Origin: Deltaproteobacteria bacterium
Lineage (GTDB): Bacteria > Bdellovibrionota_F > JAHFAK01
Direction: 5' to 3'
NCBI GenBank assembly: GCA_023250585.1
Contig: JAHFAK010000119.1
Location: forward strand, 1-6,501
DNA length: 6,501 bases
In this document: positions 1,870 to 6,501 of the stretch, piece after piece
Layout of the letters: every line of letters starts with the position of its first letter
Position numbering within the stretch: position 1 is the first letter of the stretch
Position numbers and translations under genes: made by a program
Notes under the pieces: model-generated
What the model saw: only the letters and a program-made list of their open reading frames with translations
What the model was told of the DNA's origin: nothing
Databases searched by the model: none

Positions 1870-1917
1870 CGGTATCCCCCCATTCTATGAGACAAATGGT
1901 GGGGACCGACATATGGA
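1870..1917. repeat. Repeat family C, copy 2 (full hairpin element)
   Basis: Bases 1891-1917 repeat 96-122 with one mismatch. Here a left arm is present: cggt and ccccccatt (1870-1884, with two bulged bases) pair with aatgg and ggggaccg (1895-1908, with one bulged T), giving a long hairpin with a ten-base loop. This is the complete form of the element that appears cut at 96-122. The element lies between the RNase H hairpin and the leftward nucleotidyltransferase remnant. Confidence 0.65.
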
Positions 1918-1952
1918 GACATTTAGTAGGTGGCACATAGGAAAACATGGAA

Positions 1953-2091
1953 TTAGTAGATTTTAATTCCTTGTTTTCTTATGATTTTTCCGAGGATAAT
2001 GCTTTTTTGGAAAGCTTCGGGACTATAGCCAATCGGTTCTATGCGCGGATCAACATAGCGAGTTTCACGCCAGAGGAGTTTTTCGTTTTTA
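1953..2091 (-). pseudogene. Nucleotidyltransferase (MNT-like) C-terminal remnant
   Basis: Read on the - strand this codes for about 46 residues ending KQGIKIY. The core EKLLWRE, then YVDPRIEPIGYSPEAF, closely resembles the C-terminal part of small MNT-type nucleotidyltransferase domains (the third acidic strand and 'DPRIEPIGYTPEEF' tail), which are toxin or antitoxin partners of HEPN proteins. The N-terminal catalytic part (GSxARG, DxDL) is missing: upstream of residue NEKLL the reading frame runs straight into repeat B (2092-2153), whose translation has no resemblance to the family. I read it as a gene cut off at the repeat. An overlapping + strand frame (1947-2195) has no recognisable content and is the shadow. 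No HEPN partner is present. Confidence 0.6.
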
Positions 2092-2153
2092 GGACCGAAA
2101 CGTGCCCGGCAACTTTCGGTCGAAAAACCGACCAAAAGGTACAGGCATATTTT
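2092..2153. repeat. Repeat family B, copy 1 (62 bp, left of the AbiE module)
   Basis: Identical to 3722-3783 except at two positions (G/A at 2097 and C/T at 2101), in the same orientation, with a 1630-base period. It carries internal inverted repeats: gaccgaaa (2093-2100) with tttcggtc (2114-2121), and, alternatively, ggtcg (2118-2122) with cgacc (2129-2133). It lies 27 bases past the end of the AbiEii gene and directly abuts the nucleotidyltransferase remnant. The hairpins could also help stop AbiE transcription, although no T-run follows. Confidence 0.85.
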
Positions 2154-2180
2154 GATAAATGGAACATCCACTTCATTGTT

Positions 2181-3008
2181 TTATTTTTTATATAATACCT
2201 GTTGTATTTGTTCCGAAATTATATGAGTTAAATTTCCTGATAGATTTTTCACAAAAGTCGTATCATTAATAAACGCTAATAAATCTAATTCTATACTTTT
2301 GGCATCAACATTTTTAACAGTTTCCAATAATTTCATTTTAAGTTCTTTATGAGATTTTATTCCCTTAATACATTGAATATTAGGAATTATTTTTTTATGT
2401 AAGTACCATAGTAAATCATAATAATCCCTTCCTTTTACCGTACAGAGGGTTTTCCCTTCTTTTGATGTTTTTTCCCATTTCCGATAAAGTACAGCATTAA
2501 TTTTTGTGGCCATAAGGGTAGGTAAATCAAAGGTCTTGATGAGCAGGGATTTATTAAATTTAAAAATAGGAATAATTTTTGTTTCATAGTTTGAAAAATT
2601 AAATTCATTGAAAATTTCTATTTTTAAATATAGTAAATCAGATTCACTTGTATGTGCTAAACCTAATGTGTGCAGGATAGGAATTTTTAAATATACTCTA
2701 AATTTTTGGCACTTACATACAATATCTCTATCGAGTTCCTTCTTAAAGAATATAACCATATCTTTTGCCATTTTCTCTAAATCAGTATTGTTTGTATCAA
2801 CAAAATCTAAATCTTCAGAAAGTCTTTCTAATTCATAACAATGCCGAAGTGCTGAACCTCCATAAAATATGAGGTCCCGATAGTTTTTGTGAGAATAAAG
2901 ATAGGATAAAACAAGAATTTGCAGATAATCTTTGACGAGATTTCTTTTGAATGCCTGGACGGTATCTGTGTTCTCCTTCAGTATTTTTTGTAAATAATCT
3001 AAGTGCAT
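2181..3008 (-). CDS. abiEii: AbiEii/AbiGii-family nucleotidyltransferase toxin
   Basis: AbiEii is the toxin of the AbiE phage-defence/toxin-antitoxin system, a DNA polymerase beta-type nucleotidyltransferase that arrests growth of the cell when unrestrained. The 275-residue product shows the family motifs in order: FYGGSALR (residues 48-55), RLSEDLDFV (62-70, with the metal-binding pair D66 and D68), KIEI (129-132), K169 in the LMATKINA helix, and KGRDYYDLLWYL (192-203). These match the GG(S/T)xLR, S.DLDF and RDxxDL signatures. Nothing is missing, and the length is usual. It follows AbiEi after 2 bp; AAAGGA about 3017-3022, inside the end of abiEi, gives a good ribosome binding site. Transcription comes from the AbiE promoter. 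Both genes are AT-rich and bracketed by repeat B, suggesting acquisition as a unit. Family call is firm; phage defence activity is inferred from the family. Confidence 0.9.
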   Translation of the reverse strand: MHLDYLQKILKENTDTVQAFKRNLVKDYLQILVLSYLYSHKNYRDLIFYGGSALRHCYELERLSEDLDFVDTNNTDLEKMAKDMVIFFKKELDRDIVCKCQKFRVYLKIPILHTLGLAHTSESDLLYLKIEIFNEFNFSNYETKIIPIFKFNKSLLIKTFDLPTLMATKINAVLYRKWEKTSKEGKTLCTVKGRDYYDLLWYLHKKIIPNIQCIKGIKSHKELKMKLLETVKNVDAKSIELDLLAFINDTTFVKNLSGNLTHIISEQIQQVLYKK

Positions 3009-3010
3009 AG

Positions 3011-3649
3011 TTATGTGTCCTTTCTAAAAAGAGTAGTCAGAATCGCGTTTAATCGTGGTGAATTTTCTAAGTGTACATATTTTCTAAATTCATAAATATC
3101 TTTTGTATTCATACTATCAGTATTGAGCCGTAGTTCTTCGATTGAGTTTTTGTGTGTTAAATACTTTTTTCTCAGATACACATAATCAAAGAGCGCTTTT
3201 GCTTTTGTTGCCTCAAAAATGGTAAAGCCGTCGCGATTGTGCATCGTATATCCGGTGAATAAATCTTTTTTAATCGTATGATAGATAAAGGTACCAAGCG
3301 AATTCGAAAAATGTGCTGTCTTCCATAAACTCATGTTAGTTATATTTACAACAGACTCCGTGAGTATATTATGTTTATGGAGAACATATTCACCACTGAT
3401 ATACGAGGAAGGGTAAAGAACATTTGCGATAAACTCTACAAACGTAGAATACCTTCCTTCTTTTTGAATTGTATCAATATAACTTTTTGATGTATATAAT
3501 CCTTTCTTCAGCCGTGCAATTTTTCCTGACTTGGAATATCGCGATAATACGATTCTCAGATAATAATCCTGGGGAATAAGATTCTTAGCGATCGTACTAT
3601 CAAAAAAAGGAAGTTTTTCTAATAGGCGTATAATTTCTTTACTGACCAT
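3011..3649 (-). CDS. abiEi: AbiEi-family antitoxin and transcriptional repressor
   Basis: AbiEi neutralises AbiEii and represses its own operon. The 212-residue protein begins with a winged-helix DNA-binding region (about residues 1-55) ending in the typical GKIARLKKGLYTS (42-54), followed by the antitoxin body with PSSYISGEYVLHKHNIL (about 80-95) and FEATKAKALFDYVYL (about 145-160), both common in this family. It is soluble, with no signal peptide. The ATG at 3649 is preceded directly by a 49-base perfect palindrome with no Shine-Dalgarno sequence; the predicted leader is only about 19 bases, so translation starts on a short, structured leader. Being the first gene before the toxin fits the usual AbiE order. 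The upstream palindrome is the expected kind of operator: in studied AbiE systems AbiEi binds inverted repeats in its promoter. Confidence 0.87.
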   Translation of the reverse strand: MVSKEIIRLLEKLPFFDSTIAKNLIPQDYYLRIVLSRYSKSGKIARLKKGLYTSKSYIDTIQKEGRYSTFVEFIANVLYPSSYISGEYVLHKHNILTESVVNITNMSLWKTAHFSNSLGTFIYHTIKKDLFTGYTMHNRDGFTIFEATKAKALFDYVYLRKKYLTHKNSIEELRLNTDSMNTKDIYEFRKYVHLENSPRLNAILTTLFRKDT

Positions 3650-3703
3650 ATATTATTTCTAATAGTATACACTTATTGTATACTATTAGAAATAATATGT
3701 CAA
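3650..3703 (-). promoter_or_regulatory. AbiE promoter with a 21-bp perfect inverted repeat operator
   Basis: On the - strand TTGACA (3703-3698) and TACAAT (3680-3675) are spaced by exactly 17 bases, a near-consensus sigma70 promoter. Two arms of 21 bases (3650-3670 and 3678-3698) are perfect inverted repeats around a 7-base spacer. The palindrome covers the edge of the -35 box, the whole spacer, the -10 box and the leader, and ends at the ATG of abiEi. A protein bound here would block RNA polymerase, and in RNA the 3' arm is in the leader. AbiEi is the likely ligand. Confidence 0.8.
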
Positions 3704-3721
3704 TATGTCAAACAAACAAGC

Positions 3722-3783
3722 GGACCAAAATGTGCCCGGCAACTTTCGGTCGAAAAACCGACCAAAAGGTACAGGCATATTTT
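3722..3783. repeat. Repeat family B, copy 2 (62 bp, right of the AbiE module)
   Basis: Direct copy of 2092-2153, 60 of 62 bases identical, placed 18 bases upstream of the AbiE -35 box. The G-to-A difference at 3727 breaks one pair of the outer stem (gaccaaaa against tttcggtc) while the inner stem ggtcg/cgacc is unchanged. Its right side borders the sdhC upstream region, so it marks the boundary between the accessory stretch and the core operon. Confidence 0.85.
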
Positions 3784-3891: not shown

Positions 3892-4575
3892 ATGAACACC
3901 TTAAAAAAATATTTTTGTTCTTCTATTGGACGTAAACAAATTGTTGCACTAACGAGTTTAGCGCTCATTGTATTTGTTATTGTTCATTTAGCGGGGAATT
4001 TGTTTATATTTTTGGGTGCAGAGGCTTTTAATCACTATGCAGCGAGTTTAGCGCAGTTGAGACCTGGACTCTATATTGCGGAAGCCATTCTTCTTATTCT
4101 TTTTTTGATTCATATTGTTTTTACGGCAACACTCGTGATTGAAAATAGAAAAGCGCGAAAAAATAGATATGCACTGCAACCAGCATGTAGCGAGGCAACT
4201 CGTTCATGGTCAACACGGCTCATGCCTCTAACGGGAACGGTAATCTTGATTTTTATTATAACTCATTTACTCGACTTTACGTTCGCTGATCATGAAGGAA
4301 GCAGATCACTGCTTTTTGGTGAATCTATGGGACTCTATGGCGTTGTGGTTAATTCGTTTCGCGATATTCTTCATTCCTCATATTATATTCTTGCGATGTT
4401 TTGTATTTCATCTCATTTAATACATGGCGTAGAAAGTTTTTTTCAGACTTTTGGACTCAACCATACTCGCTATACTCCTCTGATAAAAAAAATAAGTGTA
4501 TTGTTTGGCCTTGGTATTGCTTTTGGATATAGTAGTATTCCTGTGTATGTAATAATAAAATTTGGGAGCCCCTGA
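3892..4575 (+). CDS. sdhC: Succinate dehydrogenase/fumarate reductase cytochrome b subunit (b558 family)
   Basis: This is the membrane anchor of complex II: it holds the flavoprotein/iron-sulfur dimer on the inner membrane and passes electrons between quinone and the iron-sulfur subunit through haem b. The 227-residue protein has five hydrophobic helices, at about 17-41, 62-84, 112-131, 159-180 and 200-222. Histidines lie where the di-haem family needs them: H32 (IVHLAGNLF), H74 (LIHIVF), H125 (ITHLLDF) and H175 or H178 (SSHLIHG); the H32-H74 spacing of 42 equals that of the first two ligands of B. subtilis SdhC. It begins with the usual amphipathic stretch and SSIGRKQIVALT. No clear Shine-Dalgarno sequence precedes the ATG. 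The last residues (GSP and the stop) are encoded by the left arm of the palindromic element at 4565-4691, so the original end may have differed. It is followed by the flavoprotein gene on the same strand. Confidence 0.92.
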   Translation: MNTLKKYFCSSIGRKQIVALTSLALIVFVIVHLAGNLFIFLGAEAFNHYAASLAQLRPGLYIAEAILLILFLIHIVFTATLVIENRKARKNRYALQPACSEATRSWSTRLMPLTGTVILIFIITHLLDFTFADHEGSRSLLFGESMGLYGVVVNSFRDILHSSYYILAMFCISSHLIHGVESFFQTFGLNHTRYTPLIKKISVLFGLGIAFGYSSIPVYVIIKFGSP

Positions 4576-4691
4576 AAAATGTCCATCTACGGCGTTGGTT
4601 AGCCGAGATCGCTCCTTACGGCGTAACTAGAAGTATGCCTCAGTTGGCTCTCAACTAACCGCCTTGTAGCTGAACATTTTTGAGAGGCTCC
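4565..4691. repeat. 127-bp palindromic (MITE-like) element between sdhC and sdhA
   Basis: The two ends (4565-4602 and 4655-4691) are long imperfect inverted repeats: ggagcc, a few mismatches, aaaaatgt, ca, ctac and ggttag recur in the same order on opposite strands. The centre contains a further small stem (ggcgta 4620-4625 with tatgcc 4634-4639, one wobble) and a short direct repeat tacggcgt of the left arm. In RNA this would fold into one long hairpin in the operon transcript. No target duplication or protein gene is visible, so it may be a non-autonomous transposon or a REP/ERIC-like element. It overlaps the last 11 bases of sdhC, and fills most of the 154-base gap before sdhA. Confidence 0.75.
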
Positions 4692-4729
4692 TGTAATATA
4701 TATTGAGGATAGAAGAAAGATACATAATT

Positions 4730-6501
4730 ATGCTTGATGCAAAAATTCCTACGGGTCGTTTGAGTGAAAAATGGACAAACCATAAAGCTCATATAAAACT
4801 TGTTAATCCTGCAAATAAAAGAAAATATCGTATTATAGTTGTGGGAACTGGACTTGCCGGTGCTTCGGCAGCTGCATCACTCTCCGAACTTGGATATAAT
4901 GTTGATGTGTTTTGTATTCAAGATAGCCCACGCCGTGCCCATAGTATTGCGGCACAAGGTGGAATTAACGCTGCTAAAAATTATCCGAATGACGGGGACA
5001 GCGTATATCGACTTTTTTATGATACAATAAAAGGTGGAGATTTTCGATCGCGCGAAGCAAATGTGTATCGCCTAGCTGAAGTAAGTAACAACATTATCGA
5101 CCAATGTGTTGCTCAAGGTGTTCCCTTTGCCCGTGAATATTCAGGATATTTGGATAATCGTTCATTTGGCGGGGCACAAGTATCGAGAACGTTTTATGCC
5201 CGTGGACAAACCGGTCAGCAGCTTCTTTTAGGTGCCTACAGCGCCTTGATGAAAGAAGTTCGTAAAGGATCGGTGAAGCTTTTCCCGCGTACTGAATTAC
5301 TCGATATTGTTGTCGTTAACAATCAAGCACGAGGAATAGTTACCCGTAGTTTAGTCAGTGGAAAAATAGAAAATTACGCTGCCGATGCGGTTGTTTTGGC
5401 AACTGGCGGCTATTCAAATGTTTTTTATCTCTCAACAAATGCAAAAGTATGTAACGTAAGTGCGACATGGCGAGCTCATAAGCGCGGGGCTTTTTTTGCA
5501 AATCCCTGTTATACACAAATTCATCCAACGTGTATTCCCGTTCATGGAGATTATCAATCGAAATTGACTTTAATGAGTGAAAGCCTTCGTAACGATGGAA
5601 GGGTGTGGGTTCCCAAGAAAAAAGGAGATTCCAGAAAGCCCCAAGAGATACCTGAAGCAGAACGTGATTATTATCTCGAGCGGAAATATCCAAGTTTTGG
5701 AAATTTGGTTCCCCGGGATCTTGCAAGTCGGAATGCAAAATATCAATGCGATACAGGCAAAGGAGTAGGACAAACAGGTCAAGCTGTATATCTCGATTTT
5801 TCTGATGCAATAAAACGTTTAGGAAAAGAAACGATACAAGAACGCTATGGAAATTTGATCGAAATGTATGAACGCATTACCGGTTCTAATCCTTACACAG
5901 AACCAATGATGATCTATCCCGCTGTTCACTATACTATGGGTGGACTGTGGGTTGATTATAATTTGATGAGTACTATTCCTGGTTTATTTATTATTGGCGA
6001 AGCAAATTTTTCTGACCATGGAGCAAATAGATTGGGTGCAAGCGCGCTCATGCAAGGCTTAGCTGATGGCTACTTTGTACTTCCGTATACTATTGGTGAT
6101 TATCTTGCGGGCATTACACCGGGGAAGTCCGATACTTCATCGAAAGAATTTAAGTATATTCAAAAAGAAGCAGAGGAACGAATTACCCGTTTATTATCGG
6201 CTCAAGGAAAAAAAACGGCCGATGAATTTCATCGTGAATTAGGAAAGCTCCTCTGGGATAACTGCGGGATGTCACGCAATGAAAAGGGTTTACAAGAAGC
6301 TCTCAAGAAAATTCCTGCGCTTCGTGAGGAATTTTGGAAAAATATAACGATCCCGGGTTCGGGAAGTGAATTCAACCAAACACTCGAGCGAGCAAATCGG
6401 ATTGCTGATTTTCTAGAATTTGCGGAAACGCTTGTTTTAGATGCGCTTACACGCAAGGAATCATGCGGGGGCCATTTCCGTGAAGAATCCCAAGATACAG
6501 A
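4730..6501 (+). CDS. sdhA: Succinate dehydrogenase/fumarate reductase flavoprotein subunit, truncated by the window end
   Basis: The flavoprotein oxidises succinate to fumarate (or the reverse), passing electrons to the iron-sulfur subunit. The frame is open from ATG 4730 to the window edge, giving 590 residues of an expected 640 or so. Visible sites: FAD-binding VVGTGLAG (G39, G41, G44); H71 in [11 protein letters not shown] for covalent FAD; H265 in [17 protein letters not shown] (283-291); R329 in the PRD motif, equivalent to the proton-shuttle Arg of E. coli FrdA; H400 in AVHYTMGG; and R434 in [11 protein letters not shown]. All are intact. The N-terminal [17 protein letters not shown] and the [11 protein letters not shown] stretch are typical of the form paired with a single b558 anchor. 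GAGGA and AGAAAGA (4705-4720) supply a ribosome binding site. The iron-sulfur gene sdhB is expected just past the right edge. Direction of the reaction (succinate oxidation or fumarate reduction) cannot be read from this sequence. Confidence 0.96.

Follow-up and report, generated by a model that had tools for sequence, protein, structure and literature searches.

The question raised by this locus is why an AbiE toxin-antitoxin module should lie between two near-identical direct repeats, and whether such a bracket marks an excisable cassette, as a preliminary description of the sequence proposed. The window that we analyzed, a stretch of 6,501 nt, makes up the whole of contig C45, one of the 164 contigs of a 2.24-Mb genome. 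The two same-orientation copies described around the module are confirmed at positions 2092-2153 and 3722-3783 (both + strand); they are 62 nt long, identical at 60 of 62 positions, and have a spacing of 1630 bp. A 41-nt core occurs twice in the window, versus 0 occurrences in 200 shuffles, and both copies carry the tail ACAGGCATATTTT. The left copy does lie 27 bases from the toxin stop (the toxin ORF ends at 2181), and the right copy is located between the AbiE operator and sdhC. The preliminary description had itself raised the objection that the pair might belong to a larger, ordinary duplication. However, similarity between the copies ends sharply at either 62-bp edge, and we therefore reject a larger duplication as their source. 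Contig C117 opens with a sequence identical to the last 120 bp of the window (6382-6501), which makes it probable that these contigs adjoin. As this overlap is exactly 120 bp, it suggests that assembly joins are longer than 62 bp; since, in addition, the gene/repeat junction at the left copy (described below) was found at no other place, an assembly artefact is unlikely.

The identity of the module between the repeats is borne out by Pfam and PADLOC. The AbiEii-like nucleotidyltransferase toxin gene (275 aa; 2181-3008, minus strand) matches Pfam PF08843 at 7.6e-18 and PADLOC at 4e-31, and the AbiEi-like antitoxin/repressor gene (212 aa; 3011-3649, minus strand) matches PADLOC at 1.4e-44, with a Pfam AbiEi_4 match below the cut-off. 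The two ORFs, with 2 nt between them, form one operon. Ahead of it is a perfect inverted repeat with two 22-bp arms, 5 nt apart (3650-3698), which ends 23 bases short of the right repeat copy and overlaps a good match to a sigma-70-like promoter on the minus strand (3703-3675). This layout resembles that of the known AbiEi operator, in which 3 bp separate two inverted repeats of 23 bp (PMC7319586), and we predict that it is probably the AbiEi operator. The genome is rich in the AbiEii toxin family, with 14 matches in 2.2 Mb. No strong flanking repeat was present at the eight other AbiEii loci scanned, and the assembled genome showed neither a further AbiE cassette nor a circle.

When the 62-bp unit was counted throughout the whole genome (E<=1e-3), as the preliminary description had suggested, we found 42 units at 28 loci, including direct pairs around genes other than AbiE. 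At 12 of the 28 loci, both orientations occur within 200 bp, typically as REPIN-like, head-to-head inverted pairs of about 120 bp (e.g., on C26, C34, and C132); the remaining 16, which include both window copies, are singlets. Most of the units inspected are intergenic, and several abut a stop codon. At L031 672-791 and L025 2529-2587, the stop codon of the adjacent gene lies within the unit or overlaps with it, as though these units had entered the 3′ ends of genes. The outer half of the unit is itself palindromic (GACCGAAACG..TTTCGGTC), a hairpin is possible in each unit, and none of 200 shuffles folds as well as either repeat-bearing transcript (z -5.1 and -3.9). The terms "dispersed" and "hairpin-bearing", which had been applied to the repeat before its copies were counted, were thus well chosen. 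Neither strand of the 62-mer contains the GTAG tag, which is expected in some groups of REP-associated tyrosine transposases (RAYTs) only. Published work interprets REP singlets as what remains of REPINs, and describes REPs as neighbors of RAYT genes (PMC3116915). The window repeats belong to a REP hairpin family with about 40 copies. Because this family combines inverted pairs, singlets, and linkage to a RAYT-like gene, we regard the window copies as REP singlets, that is, half-REPINs. A repeat specific to AbiE is rejected, given that the family is genome-wide and that the eight other AbiEii loci scanned are without strong flanking repeats.

The RAYT-like gene in question is located on C32 (L025 2586-3239) and encodes a Y1 transposase of 217 aa, in which NHMHLLL is the HUH motif and YIYQNP holds a candidate tyrosine. 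It matches Pfam at 2.2e-7 and NCBIfam REP_Tyr_transpos at 2.4e-19 (69.6 bits, below the cut-off of 80). A + unit of the window family lies on one side of the gene, and the tail of a - unit lies on the other, at the contig end. A second REP-like family, with an 18-nt core (GGTGGGGACCGACATATG), has 31 core matches in the genome. One of its units is found in the window at 1891-1936 (+ strand; core region 1891-1917), and a further core region is at 96-122. Copies of this second family stand, as an inverted pair, on either side of a second RAYT-like gene (C47:4479-5186) that is related to the one on C32. Two repeat families, each beside its own RAYT-like gene, match the published picture of REPs and REPINs (PMC3116915). 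Judged from sequence, the C32 gene would have RAYT activity, and it probably helped the window family to spread.

Further repeats are present in the window. A large 130-nt hairpin between sdhC and sdhA (4566-4695; RNA fold -49 kcal/mol, z -4.7) has no Rfam match; C96 and C156 carry relatives that are about 80% identical, and the hairpin is another dispersed palindromic element. A third short repeat, GTGCCATCCACCTTCTGGGGACAAACGGAACA, with a REP-like look and 84% identity between its copies (479-510 and 1156-1187), brackets a DUF4160/DUF2442 gene pair at 572-1084.

The bracket around AbiE is not unique within the family. In three cases, two REP loci are no more than 1.65 kb apart, versus 0.55 expected under random placement (Poisson P about 0.02), and each of these pairs has a same-strand unit on either side. 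The C45 pair encloses AbiE, the C30 pair a gene for a 446-aa product that matches nothing in Pfam, and the C32 pair a fatty-acid desaturase gene. In the simple direct pairs on C45 and C30, the members differ at 2 of 51 columns, and only 3.4% of all pairs in the family are so close. This closeness hints at local duplication or gene conversion, a hint that is weakened by subtype structure in the family. Together with the excess of close pairs, the unusual similarity of the members makes local duplication or recombination at REPs possible. As similar direct pairs surround unrelated genes, and the eight other AbiEii loci scanned are without strong flanking repeats, the bracket is best viewed as a property of the REP family and not of AbiE.

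The left copy sits on a rearrangement breakpoint. A 200-bp segment next to it (1890-2089, + strand) has 99% DNA identity to C54:12856-13055, the only differences being at 1931 and 1948. On C54, the segment continues into an MntA-like gene that is intact (NCBIfam 4.4e-10, below cut-off; Pfam NTP_transf_2 1.2e-11), as is its HEPN partner (8.6e-14). A lone REP is located 60 bp upstream of HEPN and is identical to window 2091-2122 at 32 of 32 positions. In the window, what is left of this type VII module is a 3′ remnant of the MntA-like antitoxin gene (1953-2090, minus strand), which has 98% aa identity to the intact C54 copy. The remnant stops at 2089/2090, within two bases of the REP start at 2092, and AbiE now lies on the far side of the REP from it. 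Since the MntA-like gene is truncated at the REP, and C54 is the only place in the genome with the missing MntA/HEPN part, the window shows the loss of one toxin-antitoxin module. However, the C54 REP does not have the second half of the 62-mer, so that a direct deletion from a C54-like arrangement would be insufficient alone. Recombination at a dispersed repeat, which the preliminary description had offered as an alternative, is in keeping with a left copy that marks a rearrangement.

Searches beyond this genome place the repeat in a narrow setting. It was not found in 40 relatives, and an exact 21-mer of it was absent from the genome contigs and viral contigs searched, sets that may omit near relatives. 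The repeat core was in no other genome searched, with the phylum represented by one genome besides the source genome. Judged by SdhA (78%), an Omnitrophota MAG is the closest of the named genomes; it has neither AbiE nor REP upstream of sdhC, and is too distant to decide the matter. A phage source of the AbiE region was discarded, as there was no DNA match in phages and none in viral contigs, as was a plasmid source, since the two plasmids that match do so through distant AbiEi proteins only.

The family, its paired arrangement, its RAYT linkage, and the breakpoint are direct observations, and we consider it likely that the repeats are REP/REPIN-type singlets, that AbiE is an ordinary chromosomal type IV toxin-antitoxin locus between them, and that a rearrangement took place at the left unit. 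Under this explanation, a REP/REPIN-type family would have spread through the genome, probably aided by the Y1/HUH transposase-like RAYT on C32; an ordinary AbiE operon would have come to lie between two REP units; and a rearrangement at the left unit would have removed the 5′ part of MntA together with its HEPN partner. Weighing against it are the missing GTAG tag, the sub-threshold NCBIfam score of the RAYT, and the excess of close REP pairs with unusually similar members. We infer the order of events at the left unit, where the likeliest history would be REP insertion or a deletion at the REP edge, perhaps with later homologous recombination between REPs. It is unlikely that the direct pair is dedicated to excision, although an occasional RecA-type event across the 62 bp could remove the 1630 bp. 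The excisable AbiE cassette of the preliminary description thus finds no positive support, the repeats being a genome-wide REP family that also brackets non-AbiE genes and is not seen as strong repeats at the eight other AbiEii loci. The geometry also argues against it, because the mobile-looking units of the family (REPINs and RAYT genes) have head-to-head arms, whereas the AbiE pair is head-to-tail.

Other explanations deserve consideration. It is possible, if rather unlikely, that AbiE was captured by homologous recombination, with a REP-AbiE circle or fragment integrating into a single resident REP and giving direct copies at its ends, an event that would partly overlap the favored REP-singlet explanation. 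The direct orientation, the confinement of similarity to the REP, the closeness of the copies (2/62 differences, with the tail ACAGGCATATTTT in both), and the breakpoint at the left copy are all in keeping with capture. However, over 51 columns, the left copy differs from a copy on C125 at only one and from the right window copy at two, no donor REP-AbiE arrangement was found in the genome, and recombination within the REP alone leaves the cutting of MntA at the outer edge of the REP unexplained. The GC content of AbiE (about 27-32%, versus about 39-44% for sdhA) would also favor capture, but the flank left of the repeat is AT-rich too, so that GC does not single out AbiE. It is improbable that the copies have been retained for a role in transcription or at the RNA level, the one as a 3′ hairpin behind abiEii and the other as an insulator that separates the divergent promoters of abiE and sdh. 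The left copy lies directly behind the toxin stop and the right copy between the divergent promoters; these locations, the strong RNA hairpins, and a weak terminator-like match (3738-3721, minus strand) are suggestive of such a role, but REP units of this family occur at many unrelated loci, the left copy is without a terminator match on the abiE strand, and such effects would be secondary to REP spread. This role can hold alongside the REP-singlet explanation, as a possible by-product.

In IS200/IS605 elements, the hairpins at both ends lie on one strand, and the head-to-tail copies in the window have the same disposition. A RAYT might accordingly cut single-stranded DNA at both same-strand REP hairpins and move AbiE as a REP-bounded, helper-mobilized cassette; a RAYT is present in the genome, and the E. 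coli TnpAREP cleaves beside REP on one strand (PMC8266576). We nevertheless regard such mobilization as very improbable, as there is no second copy of the cassette in the genome, the other AbiEii loci checked are without such repeats, the arms around this genome's RAYT genes and in its REPINs are inverted, the bases ahead of the repeat include no conserved string, and the same pair structure surrounds unrelated genes. A broader version, in which head-to-tail REP singlets act by analogy as IS200/IS605-like ends, a RAYT excises and reinserts whatever gene lies between, and REP pairs constitute a generic toxin-antitoxin shuttle, is a long shot; if it were true, the swap of MntA/HEPN for AbiE beside the left REP would be one such event.

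According to the REP-singlet explanation, the bracket is accounted for by a known kind of repeat, and a REP unit stands at the breakpoint between two toxin-antitoxin modules. The locus hence provides a concrete, testable case of REP-linked toxin-antitoxin module turnover in a poorly sampled phylum. Compared with IS200/IS605 elements and their non-autonomous derivatives, it has in common the Y1/HUH transposase family and hairpin ends, but the repeat pair encloses AbiE and not a transposase, and has no conserved target string or second copy. Like other AbiE type IV systems, it has AbiEi and AbiEii homologues in the usual order with an operator-like inverted repeat ahead; it differs in that the operon is bracketed by REP singlets and its sequences are distant from curated models. 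Relative to the REP/REPIN systems with RAYT (TnpAREP) of Pseudomonas and E. coli, the window family has no GTAG tag in the 62-mer and about 40 units as opposed to hundreds. It is likewise short, palindromic, mostly extragenic, and present in tens of copies, with inverted doublets, singlets, and a RAYT gene flanked by REPs, and our verdict is that it is a lineage-restricted newcomer to this known kind of repeat and most likely not a dedicated cassette.
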